Part shown: piece after piece, positions 49,764 to 60,237 of the stretch
How the letters are laid out: each line of letters begins with the position of its first letter
Position numbering within the stretch: position 1 is the stretch's first letter
DNA from: Eubacteriales bacterium
GTDB taxonomy: Bacteria > Bacillota > Clostridia > Tissierellales > GPF-1
Assembly (NCBI GenBank): GCA_030625815.1
Contig: DAOUQF010000020.1
Span: 1 to 63,690 of the forward strand
Length of the DNA: 63,690 nucleotides
Reading direction: 5' to 3'
The notes under the pieces: generated by a model
The model's database searches: none
What the model saw: the letters and a program-made list of their open reading frames with translations, nothing else
What the model was told of the DNA's origin: nothing
Made by a program: the position numbers and the translations under genes

Positions 49764-50901
49764 GCTTCGTCTTTTGAAGCGTGACTATATGATCCTTGTG
49801 ATTCTTACAGCCATGGCGCTACTCCTGACCGGGATTTTTGGTGGAAGCATGATCGGAAAGTATCAGCCAAGTATTTTGGTAGTCTCGGAAGAATCCTCTC
49901 TTGAATCGGATCGTTTTTTTGAATTGATGCAGACGTCAGAGACCTTTCAATTTGAGTGGGCAGATCAGGCGGATGCTATTATGCGCGTGGAATCCGATGA
50001 AGTCATGGCGGCGTTGATTTTGCCGGTTGGGTTTGGGATGGATTTAAAATCCGGTATTGCGCCTAGTATTTCTTTCTTTCAATCCAAGGACGCTCTTGAA
50101 TTGATGGAGCTTAAAAATTGGGTTCGCGCTATGGTATTTCGCATGCAATCCGATCAGCGGATGGTGCACTTTTCTGTGGAAAACTTTCAAGGGGACGAGT
50201 TGGGTGTGAAAGTATTGGCGGAAGCGGACACCCATTGGGCAAATAAAGTCCCTGTGCTGGTACATACAACGACAAAGACGACTGGCTTTTTTGATTTTTA
50301 TGATATTAAGATCCATTATATGGTCGGATTTTTACTCTTTTTCAGCACCTTTAGCATTGTCTTTACCATGGCGGATCTGCTGCAGGAAAAGAAACAATTC
50401 ACTTGGAATCGGCAGATGATCTCACCGATCACAAAGAAGAAAATCCTAGCTGGAAATATCCTTTATTCTTGGTGCTTGGGTTTTATGCAGGCATTGGTAC
50501 TGGTAGGCGTAGGCGGATTTTTATTTGATATTGATTGGAAGGCGCCTCTGGCTGTACTCTTGGTTCTCGGCATGTATATTTTAGCCATTGCTGGCCTGGG
50601 GATGCTCATTACAGGATTTGTTCGAACCCTAGAGCAATTATCGGCAATTACGCCGGTGATTCTGGTCTCATTCGCCATGTTGGGGGGATGCATGTGGCCC
50701 CTAGAGATCATCAGCAATCCTATTCTTTTGTTTGCGGCGAATCTGACGCCTCACAAATGGGCGCTGCAGGCTGTCGAACGAATAGTCATGTTCGATGCTC
50801 CGATTGAAACCATCGGATTCCCAATTCTGATCCTGGGGACGATGAGCCTGGTGTTTTTTATTCTGGGACTCTGGCGATTTCATAAACATGCTATTTCATA
50901 A
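49741..50901 (+). CDS. ABC-2 type permease, second subunit
   Basis: A 386-aa permease with the same layout as the preceding one: helix near the N-terminus, outer domain (about 40-185) and a C-terminal bundle of helices. 'LGGCMWPLEIISNPILLFAANLTPH' in part matches the ABC-2 motif. The ATG at 49741 lies inside the previous gene after GGGAGGG. A GC-rich terminator follows immediately. Confidence 0.9.
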   Translation: MRTILWLKLRLLKRDYMILVILTAMALLLTGIFGGSMIGKYQPSILVVSEESSLESDRFFELMQTSETFQFEWADQADAIMRVESDEVMAALILPVGFGMDLKSGIAPSISFFQSKDALELMELKNWVRAMVFRMQSDQRMVHFSVENFQGDELGVKVLAEADTHWANKVPVLVHTTTKTTGFFDFYDIKIHYMVGFLLFFSTFSIVFTMADLLQEKKQFTWNRQMISPITKKKILAGNILYSWCLGFMQALVLVGVGGFLFDIDWKAPLAVLLVLGMYILAIAGLGMLITGFVRTLEQLSAITPVILVSFAMLGGCMWPLEIISNPILLFAANLTPHKWALQAVERIVMFDAPIETIGFPILILGTMSLVFFILGLWRFHKHAIS

Positions 50902-50921
50902 CCGCGCTTTGCGCGGTTTTT
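50902..50921 (+). terminator. Terminator of the ABC-2 exporter operon
   Basis: CCGCGC / GCGCGG with a three-base loop and five T. Confidence 0.8.
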
Positions 50922-50959
50922 CTTTATGTTCGGGTACAATATGGATAGGAGGGATGAAA

Positions 50960-51808
50960 ATGGAAGCGAGATACTATGTCAAAGAGGGAGAACGGATTCG
51001 CTGCGAGCTTTGCCCCCATCGCTGTGTAATCGCAAAGGGGGAAACCGGGATTTGCGGCGTCCGAAAGCATATAAAAGGAAAACTGGTGAGTGAAAATTAC
51101 GGGAAGATCACAGCCCTGCAGGTGGATCCCATTGAGAAGAAGCCCTTGGCATATTTTCACCCGGGAACGCAGGTGTTTTCGATTGGCAGCTTTGGATGCA
51201 ATTTGAAGTGTCCCTATTGCCAAAATCATTCGATTGCCCATGGAAAACCGGCATCCACAGAATATCGTCCCGATGAGGTGGTGGAAGCGGTATTGCGAAG
51301 AGACTTGGATTTCTTGGCGTTTACATATAATGAACCCTTGGTTGGATTCGAGTTTGTTTTGGATACGGCTAAATTGGCTAAGGCAGCGGGAATTACCACC
51401 ATTATGGTAACGAATGGTTATGTAGAGCCGGAACCATTGACGGATTTGCTGCCGCATATTGATGCATGGAATATTGATCTAAAAGGATTTTATCCGCAAA
51501 CCTATCAAAAATTAGGGGGGCGGGTAGAGCCGGTACTCAGAACCATTGAACGGGTATCCGCTGTGGCGCATTTGGAAATCACGACCCTGCTTGTTCCGGG
51601 AATCAGCGATGATCGGGAAGAATTGCGGGCGCTGTTCAAGTGGATCGCCGCATTGGATCCATCCATTCCGCTGCACTTGACTCGCTATTTTCCGGCGTGG
51701 CGGTATCATGAACCGCCGACATCGGTGGAGTGGATGGGTGAGATCGCCCAAGAGGCGCGTCGAGTTTGTCATCGCGTGAATCTGGGGAATGTTTGGGAGG
51801 TGAAGTAA
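50960..51808 (+). CDS. amrS: AmmeMemoRadiSam system radical SAM enzyme
   Basis: A 282-aa radical SAM protein. The [4Fe-4S] motif is C80, C84, C87 in 'GCNLKCPYCQN'. An upstream cysteine set in 'RCELCPHRCVIAKGETGICGVR' is characteristic of the AmrS family, formerly annotated as PflA-like activating enzymes. ATG 50960 follows AGGAGG. Its stop codon overlaps the start of the MEMO-AMMECR1 gene (TAATG). The reaction is unknown; the three-part system is defined by gene co-occurrence. Confidence 0.93.
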   Translation: MEARYYVKEGERIRCELCPHRCVIAKGETGICGVRKHIKGKLVSENYGKITALQVDPIEKKPLAYFHPGTQVFSIGSFGCNLKCPYCQNHSIAHGKPASTEYRPDEVVEAVLRRDLDFLAFTYNEPLVGFEFVLDTAKLAKAAGITTIMVTNGYVEPEPLTDLLPHIDAWNIDLKGFYPQTYQKLGGRVEPVLRTIERVSAVAHLEITTLLVPGISDDREELRALFKWIAALDPSIPLHLTRYFPAWRYHEPPTSVEWMGEIAQEARRVCHRVNLGNVWEVK

Positions 51809-53226
51809 TGATTGTTGGTGTTGCATTGGTTCCTCATCCGCCCATTATTTTGGAAGAGATTGGCCGGGGCGAGGAAAGAAAAGCGAAGGAAACCCTGCGG
51901 GGAATGGAAGCGGTCAAAAAGAAGATTCGAGGGATTGAACCGGATTTGATCATTTGCATTTCGCCCCATGGCGCTTTTTTCTCAGATGGATTTTGTTTTT
52001 TGGATGAGCGCTGGGTGCATGGGGATTTTGGATCCTTTGGAATGCCGGAACTGAGCATGAAAAAGGAGGTTGCCCAGGAACTGAACCGTGAACTGGAAGA
52101 AGTCTTGGCGAGAGAAGGGATTCCCGCCTTGTTTCTGACGGGAGAAACGGCGAAAGAATACGGGATTAAAGCAGAATTGGATCATGGGTGCATGGTGCCG
52201 CTGAAGATGATTGACGAGGGGTATGAGTCCTATCGCATCCTTCATATCACCGTTAGCGGATTGTCCAGAATGGCGCATTATCGCTTGGGAATGGTACTCG
52301 CGAAGGTTCTTGAGCGATCCAATCTCAATGCGGTTGTCGTGGCAAGCGGAGATCTTTCCCATGCGCTTAAGGAAAAGGGTCCCTATTCCTATCATCCGTC
52401 GGGATCCGTCTTTGATCATGAGATCAGGGAAGCCATTCGAAAAGGGGATGTGTTCTCCTTGGTGACCATCGACGAAGGATTAGCGACGGAAGCCGCTCAA
52501 TGCGGATTGCCGTCATTTCTCGTGGGACTGGGTGTCCTGGACGGCAAGCATATTCATACGGAGCTGTTTTCCTATGAAGGTCCCTTTGGGGTTGGGTATT
52601 TAACGGCTTTTTTGGAGCCGGGAAATCCGATGGACTCTTGGGTTGAAACCCTGGATGCGCATTTTTTACAGCAAATGGAAGAGCAAAAAAAAGAGGAAGA
52701 TCCTGTATTGCGCTTGGCGCGCAGAGCCATTGAGGAGAAGGTTCGCCACAGGCATCGACTCTTGTGGCGAACGGCGCGTGAAGAGGAAGAGTCCATTCAT
52801 GATTTGGAAGAGAAACGATTTGGCGCCTTTGTTTCCATCTTTGAATCCGGGCAATTGCGCGGATGTATCGGCACCACTGAACCGAGTTATGAGCACCTGG
52901 GCGAAGAAATTATCGCCAATGCCATCGCGGCGGCGATGCATGATCCGAGATTTCTTCCGATTGAACCGAAGGAATTGCCATTTTTGTCGGTCAAGGTAGA
53001 TGTGGTGCAGCCTCCAGAGGCGATCAAATATTTGGCGGATTTGAATCCGCAGCGATATGGGGTGGTCGTGGAATGGGAAGGAAGACGCGGGGTGTTGCTG
53101 CCTCGCCTTAAAGGCGTTGATACGGCGACGGAACAGGTTCGCATCGCAAAGCACAAGGCGGGGATTCCTTACGAAGAAAAAGTGAAGATGTATCGTTTCG
53201 AAGTGATTCGTTATGAAAACAAATAG
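51808..53226 (+). CDS. AmmeMemoRadiSam protein: MEMO/LigB-like domain fused to AMMECR1
   Basis: A 472-aa fusion. Residues 1-270 are a LigB/MEMO-like domain with likely metal-site histidines ('VPHPPIILEEIG', 'SPHGAFFSD', 'LDHGCMVPL', 'ASGDLSHAL'). Residues about 290-472 are an AMMECR1 domain, recognised from 'GAFVSIFESGQLRGCIGT' with its near-invariant LRGCIG, and 'LSVKVDVVQPPE'. Together with the radical SAM enzyme it makes the complete AmmeMemoRadiSam set in two genes. The family function is not established; redox or modification of an unknown small molecule is the usual guess. Confidence 0.92.
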   Translation: MIVGVALVPHPPIILEEIGRGEERKAKETLRGMEAVKKKIRGIEPDLIICISPHGAFFSDGFCFLDERWVHGDFGSFGMPELSMKKEVAQELNRELEEVLAREGIPALFLTGETAKEYGIKAELDHGCMVPLKMIDEGYESYRILHITVSGLSRMAHYRLGMVLAKVLERSNLNAVVVASGDLSHALKEKGPYSYHPSGSVFDHEIREAIRKGDVFSLVTIDEGLATEAAQCGLPSFLVGLGVLDGKHIHTELFSYEGPFGVGYLTAFLEPGNPMDSWVETLDAHFLQQMEEQKKEEDPVLRLARRAIEEKVRHRHRLLWRTAREEEESIHDLEEKRFGAFVSIFESGQLRGCIGTTEPSYEHLGEEIIANAIAAAMHDPRFLPIEPKELPFLSVKVDVVQPPEAIKYLADLNPQRYGVVVEWEGRRGVLLPRLKGVDTATEQVRIAKHKAGIPYEEKVKMYRFEVIRYENK

Positions 53227-54087: not shown

Positions 54088-54585
54088 ATGCAAGAGCGCT
54101 GGATCATGGAATTCAACCAATTAAACACTTCTCAATGGAAAGAATTATTGCACGACCCAATCACTGGGAATCGCAGCGGAGCATTTTATGTTTCGGAAGG
54201 TTTCGGTGTTTTCTCTGGGGATGTGCAGGAGATGGATGAAAATGGATATTGTTCGATTCGAAGCGAGGTATCAGGCCTTGATTTCGTAGAGGCGAAGGGT
54301 TTGATCCTGGATCTGGTGGGAGACGGGCAAAGCTATTTTATTGATTTGCGTATGTTGTTGCCCTTGGGACCTTTTGGGTTCTACGCGGCTTTTCATACCC
54401 TGTCCAAAATTCGCCAAAAAATCTATCTGCCGTTTTCGGAGTTTGAGCCGAGTTATTTGGGGGAAACCCTGGCGGCTTCACCACCGTTGAATCCCGTTCA
54501 AATTTCCAGTATGGGTGTGATGATCTTGGATGCGATGGATGGCGATTTCGAGTTGAAAATTCGTTCGATCGGCACATACAAATAA
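54088..54585 (+). CDS. CIA30-family (NADH:ubiquinone oxidoreductase intermediate-associated 30-like) protein
   Basis: A 165-aa beta-rich protein. The order 'DPITGNRSGAFYVSEGFGVF', 'GYCSIRSEV', 'GLILDLVGDGQSYFIDLR', 'IYLPFSEFEPSYLGE', 'PPLNPVQISSMGVMILD' follows the CIA30 family closely (the D-P-V-M-G-G-x-S start reads DPITGNRS here). In mitochondria CIA30 helps complex I assembly, but bacterial members are a galactose-binding-like fold of unknown use. No complex I genes are in the window. AAGGGATGAC precedes the ATG. Confidence 0.8.
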   Translation: MQERWIMEFNQLNTSQWKELLHDPITGNRSGAFYVSEGFGVFSGDVQEMDENGYCSIRSEVSGLDFVEAKGLILDLVGDGQSYFIDLRMLLPLGPFGFYAAFHTLSKIRQKIYLPFSEFEPSYLGETLAASPPLNPVQISSMGVMILDAMDGDFELKIRSIGTYK

Positions 54586-55381: not shown

Positions 55382-55822
55382 ATGAAAGTATTGGTGATCA
55401 ATGGACCGAATCTCAATATGTTGGGGGTTCGAGAACCGAAAATTTACGGAAGTCGAACCTATGCCGATCTTGAGGCGAAAATCTTGGAGGACGCTCGAAA
55501 CTTACATCTTCAGGTGAAGGTGAAGCAAAGTAATTTTGAAGGTGAAATAGTGACGATGATTCAAAAGGCCTATGGGAAATATGATGGGATTGTGATCAAT
55601 CCGGCAGCCTATACCCATACCAGCATCGCCGTGTTGGATGCCTTGAAGGCTGTGGGGCTTCCAGCGGTGGAAGTTCACCTCAGCGATATCGAGCAGCGGG
55701 AAGACTTTCGCAAGCACTCCGTGACGGTGGCAGGCTGCATTGCCCAGGTGGCGGGTCTTGGATTTGAAAGTTACCGGGAAGGTCTAAAGAAATTGAAAGA
55801 ATATTTAGAAATGACCATGTAA
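55382..55822 (+). CDS. aroQ: 3-dehydroquinate dehydratase, type II
   Basis: Converts 3-dehydroquinate to 3-dehydroshikimate. 146 aa, normal for the dodecameric type II enzyme. 'VLVINGPNLNMLGVREPKIYG' (in part) has the catalytic Arg/Tyr loop, 'SNFEGEIV' the Gln/Asn-type loop (F for the usual N-x-E), 'INPAAYTHTS' and 'EVHLSDI' the substrate-binding residues including catalytic His. AGAAGGAGGG precedes the ATG. First gene of a six-gene run. Confidence 0.95.
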   Translation: MKVLVINGPNLNMLGVREPKIYGSRTYADLEAKILEDARNLHLQVKVKQSNFEGEIVTMIQKAYGKYDGIVINPAAYTHTSIAVLDALKAVGLPAVEVHLSDIEQREDFRKHSVTVAGCIAQVAGLGFESYREGLKKLKEYLEMTM

Positions 55823-55850
55823 ATGAGGGTTAAAGCGGAATCTCCTGTGC

Positions 55851-55856
55851 TATAAT
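55851..55856 (+). promoter_or_regulatory. Candidate internal -10 box before the EPSP-synthase-like gene
   Basis: Perfect TATAAT in the 81-bp gap after aroQ; the best -35-like hexamer (TTAAAG, 55830-55835) is at only 15 bp. Confidence 0.4.
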
Positions 55857-55903
55857 AAAGACAGAAATTCAATATTTTTCTAAGGCTGAAAGGAGAATGG
55901 ATT

Positions 55904-57169
55904 TTGAAATCAATCGTGATTCAACCGTCTTCCCTAAAGGGAAGCGTATTGGTCTCTGCGGAGGAGGATATTGCGCGGGTTGCAGTCTGTTGCGCTGCGC
56001 TTTCGCATGGAATGAGTTATCTCAGTCATATGCCGCAGACCTATGATTTTCAACTCTTTATTGATGCGGTTTCGCAAATGGGCATGAAGGTGATGAAAAG
56101 GAGAGAAGTGGACAATCGGATCGACTATCTGATCAAGGGAACGGATCGCCTGCAAGGTGCGACGATTCAAAATGCGGGAAGCGAGAGAAATCTTCGCTGG
56201 CTGATTTCTTTGGCAGGGCGATGCGAAGAACCTGTCCGCCTGTCGACGAAGAACCAGATCTCTCATGATTTCTTGGTTCCTTACCTGGCTGTCTTAAATG
56301 AAAAGAACGTCATTTACCATAGCGAAAAGGGGCATTTTCCGTTGGTGGTTGACGGTGCCTTGCCAGGGGGCGAATATCGAATTCCGGAGTCCTTCTCGCC
56401 ATTGGCTGTAGCAGGCTTGCTTTTGGCTTTGCCGGTTGTGGATCGGGACTCGTGGATTGAATTTCCTCCAGAGTATAAACTCCATGATTGTCATGATTTG
56501 GTGATCGATTTAATGGCGCGGTTTGAGATGGAAGTGATTGAAGAACAGAATCGATTGCGGCTGCCGGCAAGGCAAAGCTTTCAATCGGCGGATATTACGA
56601 TCGATGGAAATATGAAGACCGGAATGGTGTGGCTTTTGGCGGATGCCATTGGCGGCGAGGTTGTGATTGAAGGAATTAAACGCGCCTCTTTGCAGCAGGA
56701 GCGGACTTGGCGATTCTTGTTTCAAGAGCTGGAGTTGGAGATTATGAAAGCCGAGTCGAAATATTGGCTTGAGGGACATCAATATACCGGATTGACTTCA
56801 ATTTGCGAGGATGAGGATTTTGCGATTTTTGCAACCGCTGTTTTGTTGTTCGCGGAAGGGGAAAGTCGCATTGAATTGAAAAGCATGTCGAAAAAAACCT
56901 TAAATCGATTGGGCGCCCTGCAAAGCTTGGGTGCAGAGATTGAGATTCAGGATGGATATTGGTTAGTGACGGGAAGAGACGAATTGTTGGGTGGAGAAGT
57001 CAATGTGTCAGGCGATCCGTTTTTTGGCATGCTTCTGGCGATTCTTTCGACGCGATCCAGACAGCCGATGATTATTCGTGGGTTTGAATGGATTCATCAA
57101 CAGGAACCGATGTTTTGGAAACAATTTTCTCAATTAGGCGGGAAGGTCAGCGAGGAGGAAATAGTGTGA
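55904..57169 (+). CDS. EPSP-synthase-like protein lacking catalytic residues
   Basis: A 421-aa homologue of 5-enolpyruvylshikimate-3-phosphate synthase (AroA), full length and with the right strand pattern ('IQPSSLKGSVLV', 'CCAALSHGMSYLSHMP', 'NAGSERNLRWL', 'RLGALQSLGAEIEI'). Residues that bind substrate in E. coli AroA are mostly changed: the K22-S23...R27 loop reads EEDIARV, the SSQ loop reads FSPL, the DHR motif reads DPFF and K411 is Gln. So normal EPSP synthase activity is doubtful. TTG start at 55904 follows AAGGAG. It sits between aroQ and chorismate mutase, where a real aroA would be expected. It may be a regulatory or repurposed paralogue. Confidence 0.8.
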   Translation: MKSIVIQPSSLKGSVLVSAEEDIARVAVCCAALSHGMSYLSHMPQTYDFQLFIDAVSQMGMKVMKRREVDNRIDYLIKGTDRLQGATIQNAGSERNLRWLISLAGRCEEPVRLSTKNQISHDFLVPYLAVLNEKNVIYHSEKGHFPLVVDGALPGGEYRIPESFSPLAVAGLLLALPVVDRDSWIEFPPEYKLHDCHDLVIDLMARFEMEVIEEQNRLRLPARQSFQSADITIDGNMKTGMVWLLADAIGGEVVIEGIKRASLQQERTWRFLFQELELEIMKAESKYWLEGHQYTGLTSICEDEDFAIFATAVLLFAEGESRIELKSMSKKTLNRLGALQSLGAEIEIQDGYWLVTGRDELLGGEVNVSGDPFFGMLLAILSTRSRQPMIIRGFEWIHQQEPMFWKQFSQLGGKVSEEEIV

Positions 57170-57450
57170 CAGAAAATCAGACATTAGCAACGCTTCGAAA
57201 GGAGATCGACGAGGTCGATCGTCAGATCGTTCAACTATTTGAGGCGCGAATGGAAATAGCGGGGAAAATTGCGGACGCAAAGATTGCCATTGGAAAAGCG
57301 GTATTTGATGAAGAACGAGAGCGCGTGGTATTGGAGAAAAATTCCGATCGTTTGCAGCATCAGGAATGGCGGGAAGAACTTCAATCGGTATTTCAAGAGA
57401 TGATGAAACAAAGTTGCGCCATTCAAAAGAGGAGGATGTCGGAAGAATGA
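57166..57450 (+). CDS. Chorismate mutase, AroQ class (type II)
   Basis: Rearranges chorismate to prephenate for Phe and Tyr synthesis. A 94-aa all-helical domain beginning 'LATLRKEIDEVDRQIVQLFEAR' (in part), with 'KIADAKIAIGKAVFDEERE' carrying the conserved Lys and acidic residues. The GTG start overlaps the previous stop (GTGA) and has GGAGG upstream. It overlaps aroE by 4 bp. Confidence 0.9.
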   Translation: MTENQTLATLRKEIDEVDRQIVQLFEARMEIAGKIADAKIAIGKAVFDEERERVVLEKNSDRLQHQEWREELQSVFQEMMKQSCAIQKRRMSEE

Positions 57451-58280
57451 AGTATGGGTTGATCGGCAAGGGAATTTCAAAGAGTTTGTCTCCAGCCATT
57501 CACCGACTGATTTTTCAGGAATTGGCGATTGCAGAGGAATATCTGCTTTACGAATTAGAAGAAGAGGAAGTGGAGAATCACCTGAACAGCTTTCGTTCAG
57601 GCGGCACGGGCCGCAATGTGACCATGCCCTATAAGCAGGTCGTGATGCCTTTCTTGGATGAAATTGATCCGGCGGCTCAAGCCATTGGCGCAGTTAATAC
57701 CATCTCAAACGGGGATGGCGGGCTGAAGGGCTGGAATACGGATTATTGGGGTTTTGCATGGATGCTGAAACGGCTCAAGGGAACACCGCAAGGCAAAAGC
57801 GTGGCTTTTTTAGGTACCGGGGGCGTGATGAAGGCGGGATTTCGTTATTTTTACGATCATGGCGCCTCGGAAATCTGGATTGTTTCCAGGGATCCCGAAA
57901 AGACGAAGCGGCAATTTGAAGGAGCGGATTGGTGGAAGGATCCGAGGGTGAAATGGCTGGATTATCGCGGCCTGGAAGAAATTCAGGGCGACTATTTGGT
58001 AAACTGCACCCCGTGCGGCATGGTGGCAGGACTGCCGGCTTGCGCGGTATCGGAGTCCGTGGTGCAAAATTTTCATGCCGTTCTCGAGGTGATCTATCAC
58101 CCTTGGGAGACGGAATTGGTGCGGATGGCCCGGAAACTTGGAAAGTCCGCTGAAAACGGCTTCAGCCTTCTATTGGGGCAAGCCATGGTAGCGGAGGAGA
58201 TTTGGCAAAAGCGAACCCTGTCAGACTCTATGTTTGAAGAAATTTACGAGGAATTGTCAAGCCGGGAGGAAAACCGATGA
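57447..58280 (+). CDS. aroE: Shikimate dehydrogenase
   Basis: Reduces 3-dehydroshikimate to shikimate with NADPH. 277 aa. 'KSLSPAIHRLIF' binds the substrate carboxylate, 'NVTMPYKQVV' has the catalytic Lys, 'GAVNTI' and 'GWNTDYWGF' the Asn and Asp of the active site, and 'FLGTGGVMKAGFRYF' is the nucleotide motif. ATG 57447 overlaps the chorismate mutase stop (ATGA). All the key residues are kept, in contrast to the EPSP-synthase-like gene two positions upstream. Confidence 0.93.
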   Translation: MKYGLIGKGISKSLSPAIHRLIFQELAIAEEYLLYELEEEEVENHLNSFRSGGTGRNVTMPYKQVVMPFLDEIDPAAQAIGAVNTISNGDGGLKGWNTDYWGFAWMLKRLKGTPQGKSVAFLGTGGVMKAGFRYFYDHGASEIWIVSRDPEKTKRQFEGADWWKDPRVKWLDYRGLEEIQGDYLVNCTPCGMVAGLPACAVSESVVQNFHAVLEVIYHPWETELVRMARKLGKSAENGFSLLLGQAMVAEEIWQKRTLSDSMFEEIYEELSSREENR

Positions 58281-59392
58281 GCAAGGTATTTATGATGGAT
58301 CTGCGGTCCAGGGGGACCAGTTCCAATAAGCAGGCGAAAATTAAGAAATTATTGGCGGCGGCGGGGAATAATTTGTTTCAAGCAGATTCATTGATTGCTG
58401 TGAAGACGCATTTTGGCGAGCAGGGAAACGACGGATTTATTCGGCCCATTTATTTGCGATCAGCCGTTGATTGGCTGCGGGAGCAAAAGACAAAGCCATT
58501 CCTAACGGATACCAATACCCTTTATACAGGCAAGCGCGGCCATGCTGTTGATCATCATGAAACAGCGGCAAGCCATGGATTTGTACCCAGCGTGGTCAAT
58601 GCGCCTGTGGTGATTGCGGATGGTCTTTGCGGAGAGAATGAGATCAGGATTCAGCTGGACGGCAAGCACTTTCAATCGGTTCGGATCGCTGGTGCCATCG
58701 CTCAGGCGAATGGCATGGTGGTTTTTAGCCATTTTAAAGGACATCAAATGGCAGGATTTGGCGGTGCCATTAAAAACCTTGCCATGGGATGCGCAACTCC
58801 CGCGGGGAAGCGCGATCAGCACGCAACTCGTCAGCAAGTCGATGAAAGCAAGTGCATCGCCTGTGGGACCTGTGTCCCCGTATGTCCGGTGGATGCCATC
58901 GATTTGGGCGAGACGGCGAAGATTGATAAAGCGGTTTGCATCGGATGCGGTGAATGCATGGTCGTTTGTCCCACTCGAGCCATTGGCTTGAATTGGGATA
59001 CGGAGATTCCTGAATTCAATGAGCGCATGGTGGAGTACGCCTATGGCGCGGTGAAGGACAAGCCGACAGTCTATGTGAATTTTGTTTTGCAGATTGCTTC
59101 GGATTGCGATTGCGCGCCATGGAGCGATGCACCCATTGTAGGGGATATCGGAATCTTGGCGTCAACGGATCCTGTTGCATTGGATCGGGCTTGTTTGGAC
59201 TTGGTGAATCAGCAGGAGATCAATCCAGCTTCTTGTCTGGCTCATGAGCATGCGGACAGCGAGTTTTTGATGGCTGATCAGCGCGATTTGTTTAAAGCGG
59301 TTCATCCAAACACCCAGGGGGAAATCCAGTTGTCTTATGGCGAGACCATCGGCTTGGGTTCTCAAGACTATGAATTGGTGGTGATGAAATGA
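58277..59392 (+). CDS. DUF362 protein with two [4Fe-4S] ferredoxin motifs
   Basis: A 371-aa protein. The N-terminal 180 residues and the C-terminal 120 are DUF362 ('LIAVKTHFGEQGNDGFIRP', 'VVFSHFKGHQMAGFGGAIKN'). Between them 'CIACGTCVPVCP' and 'CIGCGECMVVCP' bind two [4Fe-4S] clusters. The family is widespread in anaerobes and of unknown reaction. The start overlaps the aroE stop (ATGA) and the stop overlaps the next gene, so it is translated with the shikimate genes. Confidence 0.92.
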   Translation: MSKVFMMDLRSRGTSSNKQAKIKKLLAAAGNNLFQADSLIAVKTHFGEQGNDGFIRPIYLRSAVDWLREQKTKPFLTDTNTLYTGKRGHAVDHHETAASHGFVPSVVNAPVVIADGLCGENEIRIQLDGKHFQSVRIAGAIAQANGMVVFSHFKGHQMAGFGGAIKNLAMGCATPAGKRDQHATRQQVDESKCIACGTCVPVCPVDAIDLGETAKIDKAVCIGCGECMVVCPTRAIGLNWDTEIPEFNERMVEYAYGAVKDKPTVYVNFVLQIASDCDCAPWSDAPIVGDIGILASTDPVALDRACLDLVNQQEINPASCLAHEHADSEFLMADQRDLFKAVHPNTQGEIQLSYGETIGLGSQDYELVVMK

Positions 59393-60237
59393 GAGCGTTA
59401 AGAATTCAAGCAATTGTTGACAATTATTCGAGACCTGCCGAAGATAAGCTCGCAACGGAAGCGGGTCTTTCTTATTGGATTGAGTATGGGGAAGAAAACT
59501 TTCTCTTTGATACAGGGGATGGAGAGGCGATTCAAAAGAATATGCCGATTTTGAAAAGAAATCGCGAGTCTATTGATTCCATTATCTTGAGTCACGGACA
59601 TTACGATCATACCGGGGGATTGGGGTGGGTTCTTTGCGGAAACAAAGAAGCGGAGATCTTTGCGAAAACCACCGTTGCCAATACCCTTTGGTCCGAGCGA
59701 ATTACAGGATTTGCCCTTGCCGGGATGAATGAGCAAGTGGCCCTTGAGGCTGCCGACCGTTTTCATTATTTTGAGGAGGTTCTTGAGATCGCGCCTGATT
59801 TCTTTTTGATTCCCAAGGCAAGCGATCGTTACCCGCGTCCGGAAAGCAGTAAATTTCTCTGGGAAGGGAACGAAGGCGAACTTCAACCGGATTCTTTTGA
59901 TCACGAGTGTTTTATTGTCGTCAGACGAGAAGCGGGCTTGATTGTGATCACGGGGTGCTCTCATCAAGGGGTAACCAATATGGTCGATCAAGCGATGATT
60001 TTATTTCCCGATGAGCCAGTTTTGCATGTGCTCGGCGGATTCCATCTTCAGGGGCGGAAACCGGATTTTCATGAAAAAGAAGAAACCATTGATGCTGTGG
60101 GAGAATATTTGAAAGCGCAGGTTGCCCGAACCATCTACACGGGGCATTGTACGGGGCTTCCTGCCTTTGAGCGCTTGCAGGAGAAAGTGGGCGATCAGGT
60201 GCAATATTTCTATGCGGGTGATATTTTAGAACTTTAA
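59389..60237 (+). CDS. Metallo-beta-lactamase-fold hydrolase
   Basis: A 282-aa MBL-fold protein with the metal motif 'LSHGHYDHTGGL' and later ligands 'TGCSHQG' and 'YTGHCTG'. The N-terminal 'LSYWIEYGEENFLFDTGDG' and overall plan resemble the MBL family near methanopterin-type enzymes, also common in anaerobes. Substrate unknown. ATGA overlap with the DUF362 gene places it last in the shikimate operon. Confidence 0.88.
   Translation: MRALRIQAIVDNYSRPAEDKLATEAGLSYWIEYGEENFLFDTGDGEAIQKNMPILKRNRESIDSIILSHGHYDHTGGLGWVLCGNKEAEIFAKTTVANTLWSERITGFALAGMNEQVALEAADRFHYFEEVLEIAPDFFLIPKASDRYPRPESSKFLWEGNEGELQPDSFDHECFIVVRREAGLIVITGCSHQGVTNMVDQAMILFPDEPVLHVLGGFHLQGRKPDFHEKEETIDAVGEYLKAQVARTIYTGHCTGLPAFERLQEKVGDQVQYFYAGDILEL

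Follow-up and report, generated by a model that had tools for sequence, protein, structure and literature searches.

The window, i.e. the whole stretch of 63,690 nucleotides that was analyzed, carries at 55904–57169 of the forward strand an uninterrupted reading frame whose product is a homolog of EPSP synthase, referred to here by the working name AroA*. The features of this region are:

55382–55822, forward strand: aroQ, type II 3-dehydroquinate dehydratase (PF01220, E-value=1.6e-55; TIGR01088, 184 bits, above the cut-off of 169.85)
55837–55863, forward strand: 27-bp block between aroQ and aroA*, from the alignment of three genomes
55904–57169, forward strand: aroA*, EPSP-synthase homolog without most catalytic residues, 421 amino acids, TTG start
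57166–57450, forward strand: chorismate mutase (CM), AroQ-class, monofunctional (PF01817, E-value=7.2e-20; TIGR01805, 80.6 bits, above the cut-off of 71.2)
57447–58280, forward strand: aroE, shikimate dehydrogenase (PF08501, E-value=1.8e-24; TIGR00507, 172 bits, below the cut-off of 200)
58277–59392, forward strand: DUF362/4Fe-4S protein (PF04015, E-value=3.2e-52)
59389–60237, forward strand: metallo-beta-lactamase (MBL)-fold protein (PF00753, E-value=1.3e-13)

The CM gene begins with GTG and overlaps the stop of aroA* by 4 bp; aroE (ATG start) overlaps the stop of CM, the DUF362 gene that of aroE, and the MBL-fold gene that of the DUF362 gene, each again by 4 bp. The overlaps joining aroA*, CM and aroE occur in all three genomes of the genus. 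This series of overlaps, running from aroA* to the MBL-fold gene, suggests that the five genes are translationally coupled, and the DUF362/4Fe-4S gene presumably belongs to the same transcription unit as aroA*, CM and aroE. The DUF362/4Fe-4S and MBL-fold genes (58277–60237) follow aroE as the same neighbors in two related genomes. A ribosome-binding site of the AAGGAG type precedes the TTG start of aroA*. The 27-bp block at 55837–55863 is identical in the three species and contains an extended -10-like sequence, TGCTATAAT, with its hexamer at 55851–55856, and is a putative promoter of aroA*-CM-aroE; a consensus promoter scan gave no report of this block upstream of aroA*, and an Rfam scan of loci L027 and L004 returned no match. 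Upstream of aroQ lies a CIA30-domain (PF08547) protein (window 54088–54585; 88–93% identity within the genus, dN/dS about 0.04), and the genes at 50888–53226, judged from their translations, resemble what we take to be the radical-SAM and Memo/AMMECR1 parts of the AmmeMemoRadiSam set.

In the genome, PF01220, PF01817 and PF08501 each match a single gene, namely aroQ, CM and aroE, respectively, type I dehydroquinase and AroH-type mutase lying outside this search. Compared with nine relatives CM retains its motifs, as does AroE compared with one relative despite its score of 172 bits against 200, the catalytic residues of both being assumed. An initial reading of the sequence alone (hereafter the sequence-only reading) had stated that AroQ, CM and AroE retain their active sites, with which the motifs of CM and AroE agree.

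AroA* spans the full-length, two-domain PF00275 profile (E-value=1.3e-23; 83.9 bits; profile positions 3–415 of 417), its sole Pfam match at E≤1. In a profile-profile comparison with 12 ordinary AroAs, 419 columns were aligned with a probability of 100%, so that both length and fold are kept, as expected of the full-length EPSP-synthase homolog that had been described at this position. Against the aroA equivalog model TIGR01356 it scores 114.2 bits, its two orthologs 117.2 and 108.6 bits, all under the cut-off of 287.25, and against the murA model 27.3 bits (cut-off 392.7), which places it outside MurA. It is about 25% identical to the ordinary AroA of its own genome. Structure prediction with two sequences gave a poor model (mean pLDDT 44.7, pTM 0.30), on which no surface patch could be mapped. 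The TTG start and the length are common to three genomes, on which ground a sequencing error or misplaced start was rejected, and the frame is free of stops, as first read. Contamination was rejected because orthologs with the same neighbors occur in three genomes, one of them on a single contig of 3.49 Mb.

AroA* is present in all three genomes of the genus, the other two copies being 84% and 80% identical to it, and the three agree in length, TTG start and neighbors. Among 249 genomes of the order, searched at E≤1e-20, these three scored 928–937 bits and the next best match 178 bits; the best other match was 193 bits among 391 genomes of the class and 185 bits among 398 of the phylum (matches at E≤1e-50). 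No ortholog was thus found beyond the genus in these sets, which overlap and include the genome of the window, those of the class and phylum being samples. Four of the 249 genomes of the order gave two matches to AroA* each; three of them belong to this genus and the fourth is G040, in which both copies keep the catalytic residues. The two ordinary aroA genes of G040 (L012 and L039, on contigs C37 and C5) both lie in aroB-aroA-aroC settings and may reflect either a true duplication or contamination, which is 5% in this genome. Two peptide patterns, run against the genome_contigs collection, picked out one ortholog, in the metagenome-assembled genome "Clostridiales bacterium isolate GPF-1", which is the already counted gene of G002; no AroA was found by the scan of viral contigs. 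GPF-1 is described as a member of the Clostridia from subarctic marine sediment that was 13C-labelled from protein and lipid and whose amino acid identity to every genome available at the time was below 54% (PMC8027456).

The genome of the window consists of 58 contigs (98.5% complete, 3.1% contamination) and contains three PF00275 genes: a MurA on contig C36 (TIGR01072, 545.5 bits), an ordinary AroA on contig C20 and AroA*. The second, canonical aroA that the sequence-only reading had proposed to look for is therefore present. It scores 375 bits against TIGR01356, over the cut-off of 287.25 (375, 375 and 372.9 bits for the ordinary AroAs of the three genomes of the genus), and lies in an operon with the order DAHP synthase-tyrA-aroB-aroA-aroC-pheA, the tyrA being assigned by similarity, under every listed cut-off. 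Two shikimate-kinase genes (157 and 152 bits) lie elsewhere (L032, C24:2662–3138; L033, C54:44887–45351). With this operon, the aroQ, CM and aroE genes and the two kinase genes, the pathway to chorismate is complete without AroA*, which is not needed for the EPSP reaction. AroA* as the filler of a missing pathway step was rejected on account of the two kinase genes. The ordinary aroA is 92% identical between this genome and G001, while that of G002 (L031:9410–10669) is 75% identical to both; the adjoining tyrA, aroB and aroC are 90–92% identical between this genome and G002. Possibly, aroA alone has been replaced by another allele inside the operon of G002.

The active site was studied in a residue map in which the three AroA* orthologs were aligned with 42 ordinary AroAs and the E. 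coli enzyme; the 42 comprise the three of the genus and 39 from relatives fetched for their resemblance to AroA*. These 39 were taken from 50 AroA loci, of which 11 were dropped: a fragment (L021) and ten duplicate copies of included genes (L035, L036, L037, L038, L041, L044, L045, L047, L053 and L055). The rows were extracted independently of catalytic motifs. We assumed a set of 19 ligand-contact positions in E. coli AroA, and took K22, R27, R124, Q171, E341, H385, R386 and K411 to be the residues that contact S3P and PEP.

Twelve of the 19 contact residues are lost in all three orthologs: K22 (E/D21 in AroA*), S23 (D/E22), R27 (V/I26), N94 (G92), G96 (E94), R124 (D122), Q171 (L/F167), S197 (L/R193), Y200 (C196), E341 (T332), H385 (P372) and R386 (F/L373), although the N94 position is E in 40 of the 42 ordinary AroAs. 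Charge is reversed at two anion-binding positions (K22 to E/D, R124 to D). Five positions are mixed among the orthologs (S169, S170, N336, K340 and K411), that of K340 reading K/K/R and that of K411 Q/H/K, with the lysine only in G001. The three orthologs jointly retain no contact residues but D313 and R344, R344 being the sole cationic one; D49, R100 and D384, outside the 19-residue set, are also kept. The 42 ordinary AroAs all keep K22, S23, R27, R124, Q171, S197 and Y200, as well as D313, K340, E341, R344, H385, R386 and K411. All eight S3P/PEP residues are thus intact in every ordinary AroA, while the AroA* trio has lost seven of them and has Q/H/K at the eighth, K411.

As a rescue check, the alignment was slid around nine of the lost residues in the three AroA* proteins. 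Within 8 positions the trio has no common residue of the required type for K22, R124, Q171, E341, H385 or R386; the nearest residues of the same letter were an R one position from the R27 site, a Y five from Y200 and a K seven from K411. The residue map, the profile alignment and the sliding check, carried out as the proper alignment on which the earlier claim could have failed, therefore did not restore the catalytic residues. The sequence-only reading had these residues gone, which holds in all three orthologs for K22, R27, Q171, H385 and R386; at S169, S170 and K411 the picture is mixed.

Selection was estimated from the three pairs of genomes by the method of Nei and Gojobori. The dN/dS of aroA* was 0.130, 0.099 and 0.103, values to be taken as rough, since dS (0.59, 1.19 and 1.10) approaches or exceeds 1 in most pairs. 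For the same pairs, dN/dS was similar, at 0.111, 0.115 and 0.108 for CM, 0.084, 0.096 and 0.091 for aroE, and 0.124, 0.057 and 0.073 for the ordinary aroA. With dN/dS at 0.10–0.13 the gene is not decaying; the earlier claim that it is under selection is backed by these ratios, the argument from the lack of a stop codon being weak by itself. Variation is uneven along the protein, with invariant stretches at residues 27–53, 198–215, 1–15, 103–116 and 122–134, the longest run being of 27 residues.

The constraint is less at the old active site than elsewhere. Of the 19 positions that once contacted ligands, 11 differ among the three AroA* proteins, compared with 99 of the remaining 402 (Fisher p=0.0027), as judged from three sequences, small counts and an assumed residue list; with a 22-position set the numbers are 11/22 against 99/399 (p=0.013). 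In the ordinary AroAs of the same three genomes none of the 19 contact positions varies, against 117 of 401 others. The variable positions of AroA* include those of S169, S170, Q171, S197 and K411, and four of the 11 fall in one variable patch at residues 161–200. Since the contact positions drift within the genus, a role for the fold or surface is favored over a new enzyme working in the same cleft. Of the two options left by the sequence-only reading, a pseudoenzyme and an enzyme for another reaction, the first is hence preferred.

The branch joining AroA* to the other AroAs measured 5.6 and 8.8 changes per column in two trees, saturated in both, while branches inside the AroA* clade were 0.01–0.17 long, a pattern that would fit fast change followed by constraint. 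An AU test of AroA* and the genus's own AroA as one clade gave p=0.51, by which a sister relationship is neither favored nor rejected, the branch that separates AroA* from the other AroAs being saturated. The AroA of G007 groups with the ordinary AroA of the genus (support 90/59 in one tree and 97/97 in the other), and its gene order, aroE-DAHPS-tyrA-aroB-aroA-aroC-pheA, is that of the C20 operon plus aroE. The fetched stretch includes aroC in 37 of the 39 ordinary aroA loci and aroB in the two remaining ones. In 17 of the 39 it shows CM downstream of aroA, and in three of these (L013, L017 and L022) it extends far enough to show aroE following CM. Locus L022 (G035) has aroA-CM-aroE without aroC, the order seen at aroA*, and its AroA is ordinary though divergent; in L072 the order is aroA-aroC-CM-aroE. 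From these arrangements we infer that the genus may carry what is left of a second aroA-(aroC)-CM-aroE block, in which aroA had become redundant.

AroA* has the features of a pseudoenzyme paralog in that it has lost most catalytic residues, has an ordinary paralog in the same genome and is under purifying selection. As a normal-looking aroA lies elsewhere and the catalytic residues of AroA* are lost, it is probably a partner or regulator and not an enzyme. The reading we prefer, to which we give a probability of about 0.5, is that AroA* is a pseudoenzyme acting most likely as a scaffold or allosteric partner of enzymes presumably made from the same message. The redundant EPSP synthase of the ancestral block would have lost its S3P/PEP site, evolved very fast and then settled under purifying selection for fold and surface, not for the old cleft. 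It would bind the enzymes of its message as a scaffolding or allosteric subunit, chorismate mutase in the first place and AroE in the second, and as such a partner may tune the flux at the chorismate branch point. Position in the operon alone is no proof of an interaction with CM or AroE, and the overlapping series also takes in the DUF362 and MBL-fold genes. Genomes of the order in which CM stands beside an ordinary aroA have no AroA*, and such a partner is therefore not generally required. A tentative proposal, with somewhat less than an even chance, is that a whole bacterial EPSP synthase has been turned into a subunit dedicated to chorismate mutase, shikimate dehydrogenase or both, with an allosteric or scaffolding function.

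A new enzyme, using the EPSP-synthase fold for another reaction on a substrate related or unrelated to the pathway, is rather unlikely. The whole fold is kept under purifying selection, and the former site has positions that do not vary in the trio (E94, D122, C196, D305, T332, R335, D371 and P372), which speaks for it; against this, variation of the old cleft above the average of the protein would be unusual for a site in use, and R344 is the only cationic contact left in all three, with K/K/R at K340 and a lysine at K411 only in G001.

Among the possible roles, a non-catalytic partner of CM and/or AroE would rank first and a sensor-regulator next. The latter, improbable on present evidence, would bind a metabolite of the shikimate pathway or a transcription factor and so control expression, in the way of the AROM-like fungal repressor QutR. 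The location in the pathway's own gene cluster behind a conserved intergenic -10-like block would suit it. The loss of most S3P- and PEP-contact residues makes it unlikely that the ancestral ligands are sensed in the old site, and Pfam shows no DNA-binding domain in AroA*. The precedent comes from fungi: QutR repressors resemble the last three domains of AROM (kinase, dehydratase and dehydrogenase) and are, by a working hypothesis, inactive yet inducer-binding (PMC10512348). Like AroA*, QutR and QutX resemble shikimate enzymes, are thought inactive and are tied to the gene cluster of an aromatic pathway (PMC10512348, PMC12610400). QutR differs in being a repressor from fungi whose partner is a zinc-cluster activator, and in lacking likeness to the EPSP synthase domain, of which AroA* is a homolog. 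With these differences, the QutR family is the closest published idea that we found.

A decaying relic without function, to which the many lost catalytic residues and the very long branch would point, is very improbable in view of the dN/dS in all three comparisons, the 421 residues without stops, the conserved TTG start and upstream block, and the invariant runs. That AroA* still works as an EPSP synthase through a remodeled active site, for which the operon context and the retained D313 and R344 speak, is hardly credible when the trio shares no substitute within 8 residues for six of the S3P/PEP residues, R25 alone adjoins the R27 site, and a normal aroA makes such a role unnecessary.

Compared with EPSP synthase AroA (PF00275, TIGR01356), AroA* is alike in its full-length fold and operon setting, and differs in that most of the active site is gone, in its score (114 against 287 bits) and in being confined to one genus among the genomes searched. 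For the fungal activator QUTA, an origin from the first two domains of AROM, one of which is EPSP synthase, has reportedly been proposed; if that derivation is right, it would be another non-catalytic EPSP-synthase-like domain controlling an aromatic pathway, although QUTA is a transcription activator with a zinc cluster, whereas AroA* has no DNA-binding domain by Pfam. HisZ, a paralog of HisRS that activates HisG, is non-catalytic for the original reaction and serves as a regulatory subunit with a proven partner. Both HisZ and AroA* are enzyme paralogs kept in biosynthesis, HisZ differing in its fold, its pathway and its proven partner. The AroA of Clostridium group I forms a strongly divergent clade linked to aromatic amino acid production (PMC6656338). 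By description only, it resembles AroA* in being clostridial, strongly diverged and in an unusual gene context, and the excerpt of that source claims no loss of the active site (PMC6656338). In the literature searched by title and the start of abstracts, most subscription journals being outside it, no EPSP-synthase pseudoenzyme or inactive aroA paralog was found. An "aroA paralog" that has been published was set aside, since AroA there is a DAHP synthase and unrelated to AroA*.

EPSP synthase, the target of glyphosate, is among the best-studied enzymes of primary metabolism. AroA* is likely, on the evidence of its sequence, to be a well-conserved copy of this enzyme that has lost most catalytic residues and is kept beside genes for aromatic amino acids in one little-known genus of the Clostridia. 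A conserved bacterial AroA paralog of this kind would show that the fold lends itself to reuse as a module without catalytic function, and "aroA" annotations within aro operons would need a check of their residues. AroA* could reveal a new way to control the flux through chorismate and, if the preferred reading is true, the genus would have a control point of the shikimate pathway built from a dead enzyme of that pathway.
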